64,000 nt of DNA from the NCBI RefSeq assembly GCF_001013905.1, contig NZ_LN831790.1:7020001-7084000 (forward strand), written 5' to 3'. A program made the position numbers and the translations under genes. The stretch comes from Streptomyces leeuwenhoekii (GTDB lineage Bacteria; Actinomycetota; Actinomycetes; Streptomycetales; Streptomycetaceae). The notes under the pieces were generated by a model. The model was not told the origin of the DNA. It saw nothing but the letters and a program-made list of their open reading frames with translations, and did no database searches. This document shows positions 32,111 through 41,036 of the stretch, one piece after another; position 1 is the first letter of the stretch; the number at the start of each line of letters is the position of its first letter.

Positions 32111-32146
32111 AAAAGTCAGGGTAGGAAGGCGCAACGACAACGGCAA
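32110..32146 (-). promoter_or_regulatory. Promoter giving a probably leaderless MFS transcript
   Basis: On the minus strand TTGCCG (32146-32141) is 17 bp from TACCCT (32123-32118), and the GTG at 32110 starts 7 nt after the -10 box. No Shine-Dalgarno is visible. Confidence 0.6.
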
Positions 32147-32430
32147 GGGCGAAAGCGGCGGTCCCCCTGGCCGCGGTCGCCCCGTCGCGGCCGCCCCCGG
32201 CCGCGAGGACGGCCGGCCCCACGCCGACCTACGGGTCCCGTTGCGGCGGCGTCGACCGCCCCGCAGAGCCCCGCCACACCGTCTGTTGCGCCCCTCGCGA
32301 CCCCTCGGTCGCCAGTGCCCGCGAGCCCGGCACCCGGCCCGGTGTACCGCCTCCCCGACGGGGTGCGGCGCGCGTTCGCCCCACCGGCCGTGCGAGGCGC
32401 CGGGCGGTGTCGCATACGCTCGGCACCACC

Positions 32431-33672
32431 ATGAAGAACCACCTGACCCCCCTGGAGCCGAAGGCCGACAAGGCCACGGTCCGACGGCACAACCTCAGCC
32501 TGGTGCTGCGGGCCGTGCACGACGCGGGGGAGGCGACCAGGGCCGGGATCGCCACGCACGTGGGTCTCACCAGGGCCGCGGTGTCGTCCCTGGTCGAGCA
32601 GTTGCTGGCGTACGGCTTCGTCAGCGAGTGGGGCAAGACGAGCAGCGGGCAGGCCGGACGGCCGGGCACCGTGCTGAAGGTGGCCCGCTCGGGACCGGCC
32701 GGAGTCGGGGTCGAGATCAACATCGACTACATCGCCGTCTGCGTGGTCGACCTCGCCGGCACCGACCGCGTCCGCCTGGTCGAGCACGTCGACAACCGCG
32801 GTGTGCGGCCGTCCGAGGTGCTGGCGCGCGCGGCCCGCCTCACGGCCCGTGCCATCGGGTCGGCGGCCGAGCAGGAACTCGTGCCGGCCGGCGTGCATGT
32901 GGCCCTGCCGGGCCTGGTGAGCGGGGGCACCGTGCGCCAGGCACCCAACCTCGGCTGGCAGCGCGTCGCCGTGGAAGGGCTGTTCGCCCAGGCGCTGCTG
33001 GCGCTGCCCACCCTGCACCGGGCGCTGCCGGTCAGCTCCGACAACGAGGCCAATGTCGCCGCCCTCGCCGAACTCTGGTACGGCGCGGGCACCGAGGGCG
33101 TGCGCAGCTTCCTCTATCTGACCGGCGAGATCGGCATCGGCGGCGCCCTGGTCCTGGGCGGCGAACTGCTGCGCGGCGCGCACGGCTTCGCCGGGGAGAT
33201 CGGCCATATGGTCGTCGATCCGCAGGGCCCGCGGTGCCGGTGCGGCGCCCGCGGCTGCCTGGAGCAGTACGCCGGGCAGGGCGCCCTGCTGACCGCCGCC
33301 GGGCTCGACGCGGACGCGGGGGTCTCCGGCGTCGCCGAGCTCCGGCGGCGGGCCCGGAGCGGCGAGCCGTCCGCCCTGTCCGCGCTGGAGCGGGCGGGAC
33401 GGCAACTGGGTGTCGTGGTGTCGGGCGCGGTCAACCTGTTCGACCCGGACGCGGTGATGCTCGGCGGCGTCTACCGGGAGCTGATGGACTGGCTGGCGCC
33501 CGCCGTCGACCGCGAACTCGCCCTCCGGGTGGTGTCCGGGCTGTGGAGCGCGGGCGGCGACCGGCTGCGCGCCGCTTCCTCGCTGGGGGACGCGGCCCGG
33601 GGCGCCGCCGGGGTGATCGTGCGCGAAGTGCTCGCCGACCCGGTGGCCTACGCCGAACGGGAGGCGGGATGA
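32431..33672 (+). CDS. ROK family transcriptional repressor (XylR/NagC type)
   Basis: 413 residues. A MarR-like helix-turn-helix at about residues 18-75 (TRAGIATHVGLTRAAVSSLV) precedes a ROK domain with VGVEINIDYIAVCVVDLAG, SDNEANVAALAELWYGAG and the zinc motif FAGEIGHM ... CRCGARGCLEQYA. It is the probable regulator of the adjacent carbohydrate genes and should respond to a released sugar such as xylose or glucose. A CATACGCT -10-like box lies close to the ATG. A perfect hairpin follows the stop. Confidence 0.88.
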   Translation: MKNHLTPLEPKADKATVRRHNLSLVLRAVHDAGEATRAGIATHVGLTRAAVSSLVEQLLAYGFVSEWGKTSSGQAGRPGTVLKVARSGPAGVGVEINIDYIAVCVVDLAGTDRVRLVEHVDNRGVRPSEVLARAARLTARAIGSAAEQELVPAGVHVALPGLVSGGTVRQAPNLGWQRVAVEGLFAQALLALPTLHRALPVSSDNEANVAALAELWYGAGTEGVRSFLYLTGEIGIGGALVLGGELLRGAHGFAGEIGHMVVDPQGPRCRCGARGCLEQYAGQGALLTAAGLDADAGVSGVAELRRRARSGEPSALSALERAGRQLGVVVSGAVNLFDPDAVMLGGVYRELMDWLAPAVDRELALRVVSGLWSAGGDRLRAASSLGDAARGAAGVIVREVLADPVAYAEREAG

Positions 33673-33804: not shown

Positions 33805-35184
33805 TCAGCGGCGCTGCGCCGCGATCATCTCCCGGTACCAGTGGTAGCTGTCCTTGGGGGTGCGCCGCTGTGTGTCGTAGTCGACGCGGACGATCCCGAA
33901 CCGCTTCCCGTAGCCGTACGCCCACTCGAAGTTGTCCAGCAGCGACCAGACGTAGTAGCCGCGGACGTCGACGCCGGCGTCCATCGCCGCCCGCAGCGCG
34001 GTGAGATGGTCGCGCAGATAGGCCACGCGGTCGGCGTCGTGCACCGCCCCGTCGGCGGCGACCGTGTCGTCCTCCGCCGAGCCGTTCTCGGTGATGTGGA
34101 TCGGCGGCAGCGCGTCCCCGTACTGCTGCTTCAGCCGCACGAGCAGGTCGGTGAAGGTGTCCGGGGCGACCGGCCAGCCCATCGCCGTGTGCCGCACGCC
34201 CGGCAGCCGCACCTCCTCGTAGCGGTTGTCCGTCGCCGTGCGCCGGGCCGGGTCGGCCTCCCGGTGCGGGGCGTCGGCGACCACGATCGGCCGGTAGTAG
34301 TTGACGCCGAGGAAGTCCAGCGGCTGGGAGATCAGCTCCAGGTCGCCGTCGCGCCGGAAGTCCTGGCCGGTGATCAGCTCGCCCCAGGTCTCCTCCTCCG
34401 TGGCCGGGTAGCGGCCGGCCAGGATCGGCTCGGTCCACACCAGATTGTGCTGGGTGTCCGCGCGGACCACGGCCGCCAGATCGGCGGGGGAGTCGGTGGC
34501 CGGCAGGTTCCGGTCCAGGTTGAGCGTGATGCCCACCTCGCGCACCCCGGCCGCCCGCAGCGCCGACACCGCCAGTCCGTGGCCCACCAGCAGGTGGTGG
34601 GCGGCGGCCAGGGCGCCCCGGCCCTCGCGGGCGCCGGGCGCGTGGCGGCCGACGGAGTAGCCGAGGAAGGCGCTGCACCACGGCTCGTTCAGGGTGATCC
34701 AGCGCGGCACCCGGTCACCGAGACGCTCGGCGACCGCGGCCGTGTACGCGGCGAACCGCTCGGCCGTCTCCCGCACCCGCCAGCCGCCCCGGTCCTCCAG
34801 CGCCTGGGGCAGGTCCCAGTGGTAGAGGGTGGCGGCCGGCTCGATGCCCGCCGCGAGCAGCTCGTCCACCAGCCGGGAGTAGAAGTCCAGGCCCTTGGGG
34901 TTCACCGGGCCCGAGCCGTCGGGCACGATCCGCGGCCAGGCGATCGAGAAGCGGTAGGAGTCCACGCCCAGGTCGCGCAGGAGCGCCACGTCCTCCGGGT
35001 AGCGGTGGTAGTGGTCGCAGGCGACATCGCCGGTGTCGCCGTCCGAGACCAGGCCGGGGGTGTGGCTGTAGGTGTCCCAGATCGACGGGCCGCGGCCGTC
35101 CTCGCGCGCCGCTCCCTCGATCTGGTACGAGGCGGTCGCCGCGCCGAAGACGAAACCGGGTGGGAAACCGGGGAAGTCACTCAT
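33805..35184 (-). CDS. Glycoside hydrolase family 1 beta-glucosidase
   Basis: 459 residues, normal GH1 length. FPPGFVFGAATASYQIEGA at the start, the acid/base Glu in WITLNEPWCSAFLGY and the nucleophile Glu in IHITENGSAEDD are all present, as is the aglycone-site SLLDNFEWAYGYGKRFG. No signal peptide, so it cleaves imported beta-linked oligosaccharides in the cytoplasm. It is the last gene of the ABC transporter operon, 31 bp after the second permease. Confidence 0.92.
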   Translation of the reverse strand: MSDFPGFPPGFVFGAATASYQIEGAAREDGRGPSIWDTYSHTPGLVSDGDTGDVACDHYHRYPEDVALLRDLGVDSYRFSIAWPRIVPDGSGPVNPKGLDFYSRLVDELLAAGIEPAATLYHWDLPQALEDRGGWRVRETAERFAAYTAAVAERLGDRVPRWITLNEPWCSAFLGYSVGRHAPGAREGRGALAAAHHLLVGHGLAVSALRAAGVREVGITLNLDRNLPATDSPADLAAVVRADTQHNLVWTEPILAGRYPATEEETWGELITGQDFRRDGDLELISQPLDFLGVNYYRPIVVADAPHREADPARRTATDNRYEEVRLPGVRHTAMGWPVAPDTFTDLLVRLKQQYGDALPPIHITENGSAEDDTVAADGAVHDADRVAYLRDHLTALRAAMDAGVDVRGYYVWSLLDNFEWAYGYGKRFGIVRVDYDTQRRTPKDSYHWYREMIAAQRR

Positions 35185-35215: not shown

Positions 35216-36052
35216 TCACTTGACGGATCCGCCGGTGATGCCGGCGGCGATGTACTTCTGGGCCAGGACGAGCAGGATCGCCGCCGGGACCGCGGACAGG
35301 ACGGACGCCGCCATCACCGAGCCCCAGTCGCCGACGTGCGCGCCGATGTACTGGTAGATGCCCAGTGTGATCGGCTTGACGTCGTCCGTGGTGTTCAGGG
35401 TGAGCGCGAACATGAAGTCGCTCCACGAGAACAGGAACGCGAACAGGCCCGAGGTGATCAGGGAGTTGCGGCTCATCGGCAGCACCACCCGCAGGAACGT
35501 GCGCACCGGCCCGGCCCCGTCCAGCTCCGCGGCCTCGATCACCTCGCCCGGGATGGACACCATGAAGGACCGCATCAGCACGATGGAGAACGGGATGCCG
35601 AGCGAGGCGTCCGCCAGCATCAGGCCGAAGTAGGAGTTGACCAGGCCGAGGTCGACGTACGAGTTGTACAGCGCGTTGGCGATGACGATGCCCGGCACCA
35701 TCTGGGTGATCAGCGTGCCGAACACGATCCCGCGCGAGCCGCGCAGTCCGAAGCGGGCCAGTCCGTACGCCGCCGGAGCCGCGATCAGCAGGCAGATCGC
35801 GACGGCGCCGAGCGAGACCAGCAGCGAGGTGAGCAGGTGACCGCCCTGGTCGCTGACGGCCTTGGAGAAGCCGGACAGGTCCAGGCTGCCCGGCACCGGG
35901 TCGACCTGGAGCAGCCCCGACTCGGGCTGGAGCGCGGTGTTGAGCATCCAGTACAGCGGGAACAGCATCACGCACAGGATGAGCAGCCCGGCGAGGGTGG
36001 AGCCCCAGCGGCGCCGGGGCGTGGTCGGCGTGGGAGCGGCCATGTCCGTCAC
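35216..36052 (-). CDS. Carbohydrate ABC transporter permease (MalG-like)
   Basis: 278 residues with six membrane helices and the EAA loop EAAELDGAGPVRTFLRVVLP typical of CUT1 sugar importers. It forms the membrane channel with the upstream permease. The GTG at 36052 overlaps the stop of that gene (GTGA); ATG 36043 with GAGGGGAAG upstream is an alternative. Confidence 0.9.
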   Translation of the reverse strand: MTDMAAPTPTTPRRRWGSTLAGLLILCVMLFPLYWMLNTALQPESGLLQVDPVPGSLDLSGFSKAVSDQGGHLLTSLLVSLGAVAICLLIAAPAAYGLARFGLRGSRGIVFGTLITQMVPGIVIANALYNSYVDLGLVNSYFGLMLADASLGIPFSIVLMRSFMVSIPGEVIEAAELDGAGPVRTFLRVVLPMSRNSLITSGLFAFLFSWSDFMFALTLNTTDDVKPITLGIYQYIGAHVGDWGSVMAASVLSAVPAAILLVLAQKYIAAGITGGSVK

Positions 36053-36996
36053 TTCCCCTCGGTGCGGTTGGCCCGCAGGTAGAACACCGCGAACACCGCG
36101 GAGATCAGGATGAGTACGTTGCCGACGACCGCGCCCGCCCCGAAGTCGAGCTGCACGAAGGAGTTCTGGTAGGTGAGCGTGCCGAGGGTCTGGGTCGCGT
36201 CGGCGGGGCCGCCGTCGGTGAGGGCGAGGATCAGGTCGAGGATCTTGACCGTCGACATGAAGCCGAGCACGAGGACGACCGTGATGACGGGCTTGAGCAT
36301 CGGCAGGGTGACCGACCGGAAGATCCGCCACGCCGACGCGCCGTCCAGCGAGGCCGCCTCGTACAGCTCCTTCGGGATCTCCTGGAGGCCGCCGTACAGG
36401 ATGACCATGTTGAACGGGATGCCGATCCAGATGTTGACCAGCACCACCGACAGCAGGGCCAGGTCCGGGCTGGTGAGCCACGGCGTGTGACCGCCAAGGC
36501 CCAGGGTGTCCAGGAACGAGTTGAGCACGCCCGTGTCCTGGTCGAGGATGCGCCGCCACACGATGCCGGACACCACCATGGGCACCAGCCAGGGCAGCAG
36601 GATCAGCGAGCGCAGCGCCCCGCTCAGGGGGAACCTGCGGTTGAAGAAGACGGCCAGGGCGAGTCCGGCGCAGAACTGCCCGAGCAGCGAGCCGGCGGTG
36701 AAGACGAGCGTGTGCCACAGGGCCTTGCCGAACAGGGCGTCCTGGAACACGTGGGCCCAGTTGTCGGTGCCGTTGAAGGGCGCCTCGCCGGTGAAGAACG
36801 TCTTCGGGGTGTAGTGCTGGAAGCTCATCACGACGTTGCGGACGAGCGGGAAGCCGAAGAACAGCAGCATGAAGACGACCGCGGGGGCGACGAACCCCCA
36901 CTGGGCGAGCCGGCGGCGCAGCCGGCCGGAGCCGGGGGCGCGGGCCGCCGTGGCGGTGGCGGCGGGCGCCGGAGCGGTGGCGGTGGACGTGGTCAT
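36049..36996 (-). CDS. Carbohydrate ABC transporter permease (MalF-like)
   Basis: 315 residues. A basic, Ala-rich N-terminus is followed by six helices; the EAA motif is EAASLDGASAWRIFRSVTLP. Typical CUT1 MalF-like partner. It starts 11 bp after the binding protein gene ends and overlaps the next permease by four bases, so SBP, both permeases and the GH1 gene form one operon. No ATPase gene is nearby; Streptomyces CUT1 systems usually share the ATPase MsiK. Confidence 0.91.
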   Translation of the reverse strand: MTTSTATAPAPAATATAARAPGSGRLRRRLAQWGFVAPAVVFMLLFFGFPLVRNVVMSFQHYTPKTFFTGEAPFNGTDNWAHVFQDALFGKALWHTLVFTAGSLLGQFCAGLALAVFFNRRFPLSGALRSLILLPWLVPMVVSGIVWRRILDQDTGVLNSFLDTLGLGGHTPWLTSPDLALLSVVLVNIWIGIPFNMVILYGGLQEIPKELYEAASLDGASAWRIFRSVTLPMLKPVITVVLVLGFMSTVKILDLILALTDGGPADATQTLGTLTYQNSFVQLDFGAGAVVGNVLILISAVFAVFYLRANRTEGK

Positions 36997-37007
36997 GGCG
37001 GTGTACC

Positions 37008-38303
37008 TCAGTTCCCGCTCGTGGCCCGCTGCTGGGCGCGCCGGAGGGCGGCTTCGCTGGACTGGCCGGTCAGGGCGGACTGGAAGGCGCTCTGCAGGGC
37101 GAGCGACACGTTCGGCCAGCCGGCGCCGAGCCGCGCCGTACGGGACCGGGCGGCGGCCACCTGGTCGGCGAGGGCGTCCAGCTCGGGCACCCGCTCCCGC
37201 CAGACGGCGGCGGCCTTGGCGTTGGCCGGGACCATCCAGCTGTTGAGGGCGTAGGTGAGTTGCTCCTTCTCACTCGCCAGGCAGGCGACGATCCGGCCCG
37301 CCGTCCGCTCCCGCTGAGCGTCGCCGGTCCTGGGCACGGTGAGCACGGCGCCGCCGAGCGGACCGACCGATGTCGCACCGGCCTCGGGTACCGGGATCTC
37401 GGCGATGCCCCAGTGCAGCGACTTCCTGGTGTTGAGGGTCTCCACCTGCCACGGCCCGTTGATCATCATGGCCGCGTTGCCGGCCATGAACTGGTCGTTG
37501 ACGTCGGCCTGCGTCCAGTTGACCGTCGACTTCGACAGCGAGCCGTCCTTCAGCAGCGCCTTCCAGTAGTCGAGGGCCTCCACGACCCGCGGGCCGTCCA
37601 GCTTGCGCTCGTCGCCGCCGTTGGACCACATGAACGGCGTGAACTGGAAGACGCCGTCCTCCGCGCCGCCCGCGCTCAGCGCCAGCCCGTACCGCTTGCC
37701 CTCGGTCAGCTTCCGCGCGGTCTCGCGCAGCTCGGCCCAGGTGGTGGGCACCCGCACCCCGGCCTCGTCGAGGACGTCCTTGTTGTAGAAGAGCGCGAGC
37801 GTGTTCACCGACCGCGCCGCACCGTAGTACGTCCCCTTGTAGGAACCGAAGTTCACGATCCCCTCGGGGACGTCCCGGGTGCTCAGGCCCAGCGTCCGCA
37901 GGTCGACGAGGCCGCCGGCCTCCGCGAAGACCGGCATCTCGGAGGCGTCGAACTGCACGATGTCCGGCAGCGACTTGGAGGACGCCATGCGCAGCGCCTT
38001 CGTCATCACCTGCGCCGCGGGAACGCTCTGCTGCTCGATCCGTACGCCCAGCCGCTCGCCGCAGCGGGCCATCGCCTCCGCGTCCCAGCGGTGGTAGGAC
38101 TCGTCGGTCGAGGAGTTCATCACGGTGTACACATCGCCGTCGCGTTGCTGCGCGCAGCCGCTCAGCGCCACCCCGGCGATCAGGACGGAGGCGGCGGCCA
38201 GCGGCGTGACGGCTCCGCGCGAGCCCGCGCGCAGGCGGCGTACGGCGGCCGGAGAAGGTGCTGTCACGGTGGGTGTACTGCCCCGCGTGAAGCGTTCGGA
38301 CAT
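37008..38303 (-). CDS. Extracellular sugar-binding lipoprotein of the ABC transporter
   Basis: 431 residues. The N-terminus has a twin-Arg-like/basic stretch, a hydrophobic segment TPLAAASVLIAGVALSGC and the lipobox LSGC, so it is anchored by lipid at Cys50. The mature part is a family 1 solute-binding protein (DIVQFDASEMPVFAEAGGLV, ALFYNKDVLDEAGVRVPTTW, MINGPWQVETLN). It should capture an oligosaccharide for the two permeases. ATG 38303 gives a rather long n-region; a later start inside the first 20 residues is possible. Confidence 0.9.
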   Translation of the reverse strand: MSERFTRGSTPTVTAPSPAAVRRLRAGSRGAVTPLAAASVLIAGVALSGCAQQRDGDVYTVMNSSTDESYHRWDAEAMARCGERLGVRIEQQSVPAAQVMTKALRMASSKSLPDIVQFDASEMPVFAEAGGLVDLRTLGLSTRDVPEGIVNFGSYKGTYYGAARSVNTLALFYNKDVLDEAGVRVPTTWAELRETARKLTEGKRYGLALSAGGAEDGVFQFTPFMWSNGGDERKLDGPRVVEALDYWKALLKDGSLSKSTVNWTQADVNDQFMAGNAAMMINGPWQVETLNTRKSLHWGIAEIPVPEAGATSVGPLGGAVLTVPRTGDAQRERTAGRIVACLASEKEQLTYALNSWMVPANAKAAAVWRERVPELDALADQVAAARSRTARLGAGWPNVSLALQSAFQSALTGQSSEAALRRAQQRATSGN

Positions 38304-38325
38304 TGCTGCGGCCCTTGCTGTCGTA

Positions 38326-38378
38326 CCGTTCGGCCCCTTCGCCGAACGGATTTGTTTGATGTGATGACTAATACGTCA
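38326..38378. promoter_or_regulatory. Dyads in the leader of the binding protein gene
   Basis: A perfect 9-bp inverted repeat CCGTTCGGC-N6-GCCGAACGG (38326-38349) lies 22 bp upstream of the SBP start, and TGAC-N6-GTCA (38365-38378) just beyond it in an AT-rich patch. Both are candidates for the ROK repressor or a general sugar regulator. The first contains CCGAAC, which recurs at 38692-38723. Confidence 0.5.
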
Positions 38379-38579
38379 GCAATAGGTTGGCGCGCTAGAG
38401 GAAGTGGCGTCCGTCTCCCTGTTCCGGAGGGTGAAAACCGCTTGCCGTTCGGTAATCGGCCCTGGTCACGCTGTCGCTTCCGCGTCGAGGGCTCCCTCAG
38501 CGGCATTTGTTTTGTGTACGATCAAATCGCTTCGCGCGGTCCCTTCCGGGGCCGTCGGACAGCTCCAGGCCGAAACTCC

Positions 38580-38682
38580 GTCGACAGTTCGTCGAAGCGC
38601 CGTCGAACTCGGTCGAATCGCCGTCGAAACGGCGTCGAACGAGTGTCGAAAGGCCGTCGAATTCCTGTCGAACGAAGTCGAA
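38580..38682. repeat. Phased array of ten GTCGA(A/C) boxes
   Basis: GTCGAC at 38580 and GTCGAA at 38591, 38602, 38612, 38623, 38634, 38645, 38656, 38667 and 38677: steps of 11,11,10,11,11,11,11,11,10 bp (mean 10.8). The 4-5 bp between boxes differ in every unit, so the core and the spacing are kept rather than a whole repeat unit. It lies in the divergent region between the SBP and GH31 genes. Confidence 0.85.
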
Positions 38683-38691
38683 TGGGCCGGC

Positions 38692-38723
38692 CCGAACAGC
38701 TCGGCCGAACAGCTCCGCCGAAC
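38692..38723. repeat. Three CCGAAC boxes with 13-bp period
   Basis: CCGAACAGCTC at 38692 and 38705, then CCGAACGG at 38718, directly after the GTCGAA array and 43 bp before the GH31 start. CCGAAC also forms one arm of the hairpin at 38341. Confidence 0.6.
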
Positions 38724-38765
38724 GGTTCCCCCACCGGACGGATCCCGCCCCACCCGAGGAAGATC

Positions 38766-41036
38766 ATGAAGTTCACCGATGGCTTCTGGCTCGTCCGCGA
38801 CGGCGTGCGCATCTCGTACGCCACCGACGTCCGCGACGTGCGCTCCGGCGCCGACCGCTTCACCGCCCACGCCGCCGTCCGGAAGGTGACCGGCAGAGGA
38901 GGCACGCTCAACGCGCCGCTCCTCACGGTCGACTGCTTCTCCCCGGCCGAGGGCGTGATCGGCGTCCGCGTCACGCACCACGCGGGCAAGCGCCGCCCGG
39001 GCCCCGACTTCGCCCTCACCACGCCCGGCGGCGAGACCGCCCGGGTGCGCCGGGACGGCACCGTCACGGAGCTGACCAGCGGCCCGCTGACCCTCCGGCT
39101 GGACGAGTCCGCCCCCTGGGCGCTCACCTTCCACGACGCGGACGGACGCGAGCTGACCCGGTCGGGCCGCAAGGGCACCGCCTTCGCCGTCACCGGCGAC
39201 GGCGCCCACCACATGCTCGCCCAGCTCGCGCTCGGAGTCGGCGAGCAGATCTACGGCCTCGGCGAGCGTTTCACCCCGTTCGTCAAGAACGGCCAGGTCG
39301 TCGACATCTGGCAGGCCGACGGCGGCACCAGCAGCGAGCAGGCGTACAAGAACGTCCCCTTCTACCTCTCCTCCCGCGGCTACGGCGTCTTCGTCAACCA
39401 CCCCGGCGCGGTCTCCTTCGAGGTCGGCTCCGAGTCCGTCGGGCAGGTGCAGTTCAGCGTCGAGGACCAGACGCTGGAGTACTACGTCGTCGCGGGCCCC
39501 ACCCCCAAGGACGTCCTGACCCGCTACACGGCCCTCACCGGCCGCCCGGCCCTGCCGCCCGCCTGGTCCTTCGGCCTGTGGCTCAGCACCTCCTTCACCA
39601 CCTCCTACGACGAGCGGACCGTGATGTCCTTCGTCGACGGCATGGCCGAGCGCGGCATCCCCCTGTCCGTCTTCCACTTCGACTGCTTCTGGATGCGCGA
39701 GTACCAGTGGTGCGACTTCCAGTGGGACCCGGACGTCTTCCCCGACCCGGAGGGCATGCTGGCCCGGCTGAAGGAGAAGGGCCTGAGGGTGAGCGCCTGG
39801 ATCAACCCCTACATCGCCCAGAAGTCCCCGCTGTTCGACGAGGCCGCCGCCCTCGGCCACCTGGTGCGCCGGCCGAACGGCGACATCTGGCAGTGGGACC
39901 TGTGGCAGGCGGGCATGGGCCTGGTCGACTTCACCAGCCCCGAGGCCCGCGCCTGGTTCCAGTCGAAGCTGAAGCCGCTGCTGGACCAGGGCGTCGACTG
40001 CTTCAAGACCGACTTCGGCGAGCGCGTCCCCACCGACGTCGTCTGGCACGACGGCTCCGACCCCGAGCGGATGCACAACTACTACACCCACCTCTACAAC
40101 CGGACCGTGTTCGAACTTTTGGAGAAGGAGCGGGGCCACGGCGAGGCCGTGCTCTTCGCCCGGTCCGCGACCGCGGGCGGACAGCAGTACCCGGTGCACT
40201 GGGGCGGCGACTGCTGGTCCTCCTTCGAGGCCATGGCCGAGTCGCTGCGCGGCGGTCTGTCGCTGTCCCTGAGCGGCTTCGGCTTCTGGAGCCACGACAT
40301 CGGCGGCTTCGAGGGCACCCCCGAGCCGTCGGTGTTCAAGCGCTGGCTGGCCTTCGGCCTGCTGTCCTCGCACAGCCGCCTGCACGGCTCGTCGTCGTAC
40401 CGGGTGCCGTGGGAGTTCGGCGACGAGGCGGTCGACGTCGCCCGGCGGTTCACCCTGCTCAAGCAGCGGCTCATGCCCTACCTGTACGGCGCCGCCGCCG
40501 AGGCCCACCGCACCGGCGTGCCGGTCATGCGGCCCATGGTGCTGGAGTTCCCGCACGACCCGGCGTGCCGCCCGCTGGACCGCCAGTACATGCTCGGCCC
40601 CGACCTGCTGGTCGCCCCCGTCTTCACCGAGGACGGCGAGGTGGAGGTCTACCTCCCCGAGGGCACCTGGACCCACCTGCTGAGCGGAGAGAAGGTCACC
40701 GGCCCGGCCTGGCGCACCGAACGGCACGGCTACGACAGCCTCCCGCTCTACGTCCGTGAGGGCGCCGTCCTGCCGCTGGCCGCCGAGGGCACGCGCCCCG
40801 ACGGCGACTGGCTGGACGCGCTCACCCTGCTCGTCCACCCGCCCACCGGACCCGAGTACGCCGCCGAGGTCACCGTGCCCGACGCGACCGGGGCGCCGGC
40901 GGCCGGCTTCCGCGTACGGCGCGAGGGCGATCTGCTGCGCGTCACCGGGAGCGGCGGCGGCCGGCCGTTCACCGTGCGGGTGGCCGGCGGCCCGAGCGCC
41001 GAGGGGACGGGCGAGGTGACCGTGCCGCTGGCCTGA
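38766..41036 (+). CDS. Glycoside hydrolase family 31 alpha-xylosidase (YicI-like)
   Basis: 756 residues, close to YicI length (772). MKFTDGFWLVRDGVRISYAT is the typical N-terminal beta-sandwich start; the catalytic nucleophile is Asp in DCFKTDFGERVP and the acid/base region is HWGGDCWSSFEAM; YGLGERFTPFVKNGQ and WDLWQAGMGLVDFTSP match alpha-xylosidases. No signal peptide. It should remove alpha-xylose from isoprimeverose or xyloglucan fragments imported by the divergent ABC operon, whose GH1 enzyme would hydrolyse the beta-glucan backbone. GAGGAAG precedes the ATG. Confidence 0.92.
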   Translation: MKFTDGFWLVRDGVRISYATDVRDVRSGADRFTAHAAVRKVTGRGGTLNAPLLTVDCFSPAEGVIGVRVTHHAGKRRPGPDFALTTPGGETARVRRDGTVTELTSGPLTLRLDESAPWALTFHDADGRELTRSGRKGTAFAVTGDGAHHMLAQLALGVGEQIYGLGERFTPFVKNGQVVDIWQADGGTSSEQAYKNVPFYLSSRGYGVFVNHPGAVSFEVGSESVGQVQFSVEDQTLEYYVVAGPTPKDVLTRYTALTGRPALPPAWSFGLWLSTSFTTSYDERTVMSFVDGMAERGIPLSVFHFDCFWMREYQWCDFQWDPDVFPDPEGMLARLKEKGLRVSAWINPYIAQKSPLFDEAAALGHLVRRPNGDIWQWDLWQAGMGLVDFTSPEARAWFQSKLKPLLDQGVDCFKTDFGERVPTDVVWHDGSDPERMHNYYTHLYNRTVFELLEKERGHGEAVLFARSATAGGQQYPVHWGGDCWSSFEAMAESLRGGLSLSLSGFGFWSHDIGGFEGTPEPSVFKRWLAFGLLSSHSRLHGSSSYRVPWEFGDEAVDVARRFTLLKQRLMPYLYGAAAEAHRTGVPVMRPMVLEFPHDPACRPLDRQYMLGPDLLVAPVFTEDGEVEVYLPEGTWTHLLSGEKVTGPAWRTERHGYDSLPLYVREGAVLPLAAEGTRPDGDWLDALTLLVHPPTGPEYAAEVTVPDATGAPAAGFRVRREGDLLRVTGSGGGRPFTVRVAGGPSAEGTGEVTVPLA

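Follow-up and report, generated by a model that had tools for sequence, protein, structure and literature searches.

The window, by which we mean the whole 64,000-nucleotide stretch of DNA analysed here, carries a sugar-related gene cluster in which the start of a gene for an ABC transporter sugar-binding protein (SBP, 38303) and the ATG of a GH31 gene (38766) face away from each other across a divergent region of 462 bp. A permease and a GH1 beta-glucosidase gene follow the SBP gene on its strand, and a ROK-family gene lies beyond them (Table 1). The locus presumably serves the use of xyloglucan oligosaccharides.

Two short conserved elements and an array of ten GTCGA(A/C) boxes lie in the divergent region. 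The TGTGTACGATC core of the first element is present in 12/12 aligned and 27/40 counted relatives, and ACTAATACG of the second in 40/40 counted relatives, for which it is also one of the two alternative criteria of counting. The end of the -10-like TACGAT in the first element is 58 bp upstream of box 1, and 84 bp separate the end of box 10 from the GH31 start codon. Since the array lies 3' of this putative -10, it is probably transcribed, as part of the GH31 leader. A sigma-70 promoter scan found no promoters. We also considered the array as coding sequence and rejected this: the open GH31 frame extends far upstream, but relatives share the MKFTDGFW start (or a close variant) and a GAGGAAGA-type ribosome site.

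Table 1 Features of the locus, in window coordinates
Feature	Position	Strand	Remarks
ROK-family protein	32407..33672	+	
GH1 beta-glucosidase	33805..35184	-	
ABC permease	36049..36996	-	
ABC transporter sugar-binding protein (SBP)	37008..38303	-	
Decayed counterpart of the SBP-start operator of relatives	38286..38301		5 mismatches
Element ATGACTAATACGTCA	38364..38378		contains ACTAATACG
Element TTTGTTTTGTGTACGATC	38506..38523	+	core TGTGTACGATC; includes -10-like TACGAT at 38517-38522 (putative promoter)
Stretch unaligned to relatives	38532..38729		19 bp there in G118, G190 and G136; net excess 177-182 bp
Predicted hairpin	38579..38674	+	axis near 38626; apical loop holds box 5; box 10 not included
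GTCGA(A/C) array, ten boxes	38580..38682	+	boxes at 10-11 bp
13-bp tandem repeat, consensus CCGAACAGCTCCG	38692..38723	+	flanks the array at its 3' edge
GH31, alpha-xylosidase model	38766..41036	+	1217 bits against a cut-off of 606
Decayed counterpart of the relatives' operator at GH31 codons 28-33	38849..38864		6 mismatches

Sequence and phasing of the box array

The GTCGA boxes start at positions 38580, 38591, 38602, 38612, 38623, 38634, 38645, 38656, 38667 and 38677, corresponding to steps of 11, 11, 10, 11, 11, 11, 11, 11 and 10 bp (mean 10.8). They keep a single orientation throughout; nine read GTCGAA and box 1 reads GTCGAC. In 200 random windows of 64 kb each, generated by an order-3 Markov model, the longest GTCGA run at 9-12 bp was two boxes (142 windows) or one (58 windows), and the runner-up 5-mer of the real window, with the overlapping TCGAA excluded, forms a run of four. 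Masked N apart, no other 6-mer runs beyond three at 10-11 bp in 773 kb of Streptomyces DNA including the window. A triple-box pattern matches the 8.1-Mb genome itself eight times, every time within the array, and the reversed pattern, used as a control, has no match in the genome. A chance origin of the run is excluded.

For a period of 10.8 the boxes give a Rayleigh R of 0.985, compared with 0.943 for 11 and 0.842 for 10.5. The period is thus closer to 11 than to 10.5, and the boxes drift over the helical face by roughly a quarter turn across nine turns.

The five core positions are invariant across all ten boxes. The nine linkers share a pairwise identity of 30%, against an expectation of 29% from composition, and 789 of 5000 shuffles reach this value. 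Units of an ordinary minisatellite are alike over their whole length; linker likeness at the level of composition therefore argues that the array is not an ordinary decaying minisatellite. Uniform decay would leave all 50 core bases intact with a probability of 0.005 at a per-site retention of 0.9 and of 2e-8 at 0.7. An invariant core between unrelated linkers is thus a poor fit to uniform decay of a tandem repeat, and points either to selection on core and step or to assembly of the array from cores.

These results agree with the preliminary description of this DNA, which had placed ten boxes at 10-11 bp in the SBP/GH31 divergent region: their number and spacing lie far beyond chance in the Markov windows, their helical phasing is borne out with the drift given above, and its view that they are not a plain recent tandem duplication gains support from the unrelated linkers. 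The position 3' of the likely GH31 promoter and the capacity to fold into one hairpin go beyond that description, and the architectural or nucleoid-protein role that it also suggested would be speculative.

Absence of the array in relatives

We then counted the boxes in orthologous SBP/GH31 regions, looking at up to 600 bp upstream. From 58 loci, six with neither a divergent SBP nor ACTAATACG were set aside and 12 were dropped because their upstream sequence was identical or no GH31 start was in reach. None of the 40 counted regions has a run of three boxes. The named-genome search covered the best 80 of 582, with a best GH31 identity of 89%; it may omit the records most similar to the window, so that a close sister with the array could be missed. 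As far as the relatives examined show, the array appears to be lineage-specific, and the persistence of box number and phase in homologous regions that the preliminary description had considered is not seen.

The divergent region measures 280-285 bp in 12 aligned relatives versus 462 bp in the window. The extra DNA contains CCGA(A)CAGCTC-like words, a single one of which stands near the ribosome site in relatives, and array unit 1 resembles the native leader word CCGACAGCTCC. From the CCGA(A)CAGCTC-like words and the 13-bp repeat at its edge, the extra DNA looks locally born. An origin from a mobile element was rejected: plasmid and phage collections gave no match to 38535-38765, the sole match lies in the genome itself, and the flanking words look local.

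The ROK protein had also been suggested for binding assays. Nothing we found points to it as a reader of the boxes, and the box word matches one half of a LacI-type operator present at this locus in relatives. The ROK gene is aligned in G118 and partially in G136, and has no alignment over 200 bp in G190; it is thus not constant here. PMC4856308 gives the RokB site as TTTGTTC-N11-GAACAAA. Conserved TTTGTTT-type elements at 38350-38378 (with ACTAATACG) and 38506-38527 (with TGTGTACGATC) resemble half of it, and by this analogy may be sites of a ROK protein.

Loss of LacI-type operators at the locus

At two mismatches or fewer, a LacI-type operator, GTYGAAGCGCTTCRAC, lies over the SBP start in 39/40 relatives and a second one at GH31 codons 28-33 in 32/40. 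The box word GTCGAA is the outer half of this operator. In the window, both ancestral-type operators are lost, and no complete operator, with two facing half-sites in a palindrome, is found at up to three mismatches. The inner operator of L338/L003 and other relatives is mostly ATCGAAGCGCTTCACC. Some 385 bp separate it from the SBP-start operator, and the two are a possible looping pair.

Operators have also been lost elsewhere without gain of an array, upstream in L346 and within GH31 in L083, L085, L087 and L346, which speaks against a tight link between loss and array. Instead, an operator stands ~70 bp before GH31 in three of them, exact in L083 and with two mismatches in L085 and L087. 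The operator survey of 29 relatives includes two identical ones.

The genome itself encodes a LacI-family protein (G000:C3:2448745) whose gene has an exact operator, GTCGAAGCGCTTCGAC, upstream. Exact TCGAAGCGCTTCGA stands near the start at 1/26 LacI-type loci fetched from this genome and at 1/31 fetched from G118, the latter being the 91% identical counterpart. The literature collection searched gave no match for GTCGAAGCGCTTCGAC, nor for LacI with Streptomyces and TCGAAGCGCTTCGA. In G118, G190 and G136, a LacI gene lies 12-13 kb from the locus; the window is without such a gene. Loss of a cognate regulator was nevertheless rejected as an explanation, as the LacI of G118 belongs to a separate SBP/GH2 block of ~8.5 kb and the genome retains the LacI gene that has the exact operator upstream. 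This ~8.5 kb is present in G118 and G190 at window positions ~32125-32406 and missing from the window; in G118 the block holds LacI, SBP, GH2 and ricin-B-lectin-type genes.

GTCGAA half-sites and arrays in other Streptomyces

Among the 129 matches listed in other Streptomyces for GTCGAA before GTCGAAGCGCTTC, a step of 11 occurs 12 times and steps of 9, 10, 12 and 13 occur 2-4 times; several of the 12 share their downstream flank and represent the same orthologous site. A step of 23 occurs 54 times, mostly in one recurring double-operator arrangement. The excess at step 11 suggested conserved in-phase half-sites, but this was not borne out at that orthologous operator, where an extra half-site 11 bp upstream is present in 3 of 31 sites (30 loci kept from the 134/295 genomes with a match, and the genome's own site). 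Such a sporadic extra half demonstrates a way for an array to grow, not a function. This operator type is part of a 33-base stretch, GTCGAAGCGCTTCGATGTTGCNGCGAGGTTAAG, found at up to two mismatches in 134/295 Streptomyces genomes and, in the own genome, at G000:C3:2463325 (L223:5326) beside a sugar-binding protein gene. In L147 and L152, a tandem GTCGAA array runs into a one-mismatch operator; within the array described here, the GTCGAAGC continuation is found at box 2 only.

Triple GTCGAA arrays are found in 19/392 Streptomyces genomes, the own genome included. These minisatellites share the word and the 10-11 bp unit with the array. Unlike it, they mostly have 3-4 units, and their linkers are identical in 11 of the 18 other genomes. 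A rough gene finder, which is in error at the window itself, places 22/26 such array loci outside called genes. L015, L175, L142, L144 and L148 carry GTCGA-type arrays of 3-6 boxes within ~35 bp of a likely gene start, according to rough gene calls.

The array could be a functionless local expansion in an untranslated leader, where the self-complementary TCGA would have prompted slippage or template switching. We regard this reading as doubtful yet a serious contender. Its occurrence in this genome alone against 0/40 relatives, the spread of similar arrays with their largely intergenic position and often identical linkers, and flanking repeats that look like copies of native leader words all favour it; the small probability that uniform decay spares all 50 core bases counts against it. 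Fold-back copying, moreover, would give TTCGAC in one arm, and every box reads GTCGA(A/C); the G and A that face each other unpaired at the box edges in the predicted fold speak against such copying as the origin.

Predicted folding of the leader

The array may instead act through its structure, a single long hairpin in the GH31 leader RNA or a DNA cruciform, in which TCGA pairs with TCGA, mirrored linkers pair in between and box 5 caps the stem. Such a hairpin would govern how stable the RNA is or how it is processed or translated, or would show the motif once per 11-nt turn of A-form. The predicted fold is more stable than that of most shuffled sequences, both as RNA (z -2.76, 1/200 shuffles) and as single-stranded DNA (z -3.40, 0/200). 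With the boxes held fixed, its energy is reached by 0/1000 shuffles of linker letters and 3/1000 permutations of linker words, and other borders gave 0, 0, 2 and 4 of 400. The position of the array 3' of the likely promoter also suits a structure in RNA. However, this test was picked once the fold had been seen, a coarser, word-level test of mirroring among the linkers yields 749/20000, and the leader taken in full shows no unusual folding (z -1.34, 18/200). No Rfam match was found at E up to 1 over 37900-39100. A hairpin alone needs no identical cores, and the box-edge G and A would face each other as mismatches. We consider it rather unlikely that the array functions as a hairpin. The reversed array was discarded as a fold control: it folds better (-53.9), but complementarity survives reversal.

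A reading that joins both properties is that ten one-way half-sites with mirrored linkers took the place of the pair of palindromic LacI-type operators in one lineage and form a site for a cooperative protein filament on DNA and, at the same time, a ladder in RNA or cruciform. The leader would then fold into a single stem in which, every 11 nt, one GUCGAA faces another. We know of no described counterpart of a graded-dosage sugar switch of this kind, and we consider this reading very unlikely.

Comparison with known direct-repeat sites

PHO boxes have a core of the GTTCA type, and SARP target repeats come in few units. All cores of the array read GTCGA, none of the PHO type. In the portion of PMC7866108 used here, Streptomyces PHO boxes are described as direct repeat units of 11 nt, with up to four core and two weaker units. 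The corresponding portion of PMC6510168 describes SARP targets as TCGAGXX heptamers with 4-bp spacers, and that of PMC5859096 describes BldC as binding head-to-tail to a varying number of direct repeats with 9-bp AATTXXXX(C) units.

It is tempting to speculate that the boxes are a tandem site for a protein that binds 11-bp direct repeats, such as a response regulator of the OmpR/PhoB type or a SARP-type activator. Seven of the nine steps are 11 bp and two are 10 bp, and an 11-nt unit with an invariant core of 5-6 bp and freer linkers is also the build of the PHO boxes, as far as PMC7866108 describes them. The SARP heptamer with its spacer likewise makes 11 bp and has TCGA in common with the array (PMC6510168, in part). 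Yet the core is neither the PHO core nor TCGAG, being TCGAA in nine boxes and TCGAC in one, so that G after TCGA is lacking. SARP sites lie upstream of the -10 region, according to the same part of PMC6510168, whereas the array would be 3' of the putative -10. No regulator of either type emerged from the analysis. Its ten units also exceed the two to six described for PHO boxes and the numbers described for SARP sites in these parts of PMC7866108 and PMC6510168. A direct-repeat binder of these types is, in our judgement, quite unlikely. BldC sites share the head-to-tail arrangement of direct repeats and differ in their 9-bp AATTXXXX(C) units (PMC5859096, in part), the array having units of 10-11 bp with GTCGA cores.

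Another close comparison is the LacI-family operator of Streptomyces sugar genes, a motif derived here, whose outer half is GTCGAA and which is found at this locus in relatives. This operator is a palindrome of two facing halves, whereas the array consists of ten halves in one direction and, unlike the operator, is conserved in 0/40 relatives. As each candidate fails in at least one feature tested, we assign the array to no known family.

Discussion

We propose a mechanistic model in which the array acts as a regulatory site of recent, lineage-specific origin that replaces the pair of LacI-type operators, its likeliest reader being a LacI-family protein of the same genome, or else another repeat-binding protein. 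We favour this model tentatively, as a possibility and not as a probable account. The array would have grown locally within the leader of GH31, the alpha-xylosidase gene, and selection would maintain the GTCGA(A) word, repeated once per helical turn. The array may have taken over from the operators at the SBP start and at GH31 codons 28-33. Neighbouring proteins bound along a single face of the DNA, 3' of the likely GH31 promoter, would form a cooperative roadblock or a graded switch. The first candidate for the reader is the protein encoded at G000:C3:2448745, because of the locus, the word and the lost operators.

LacI-family dimers bind palindromes. The half-sites of the array all point one way, which argues against ordinary LacI binding. 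The likeness of GTCGAA to the operator half-site may also be due to chance, given the resemblance of unit 1 to CCGACAGCTCC.

If the boxes are read by a LacI-family protein, the locus would represent a case of operator turnover, from a pair of palindromes to a phased array of half-sites. The prior state is seen in 40 related regions and the later state in one genome, so that their promoters are directly comparable. In that case, the array would offer a testable route by which the growth of a short tandem word leads to new control logic.
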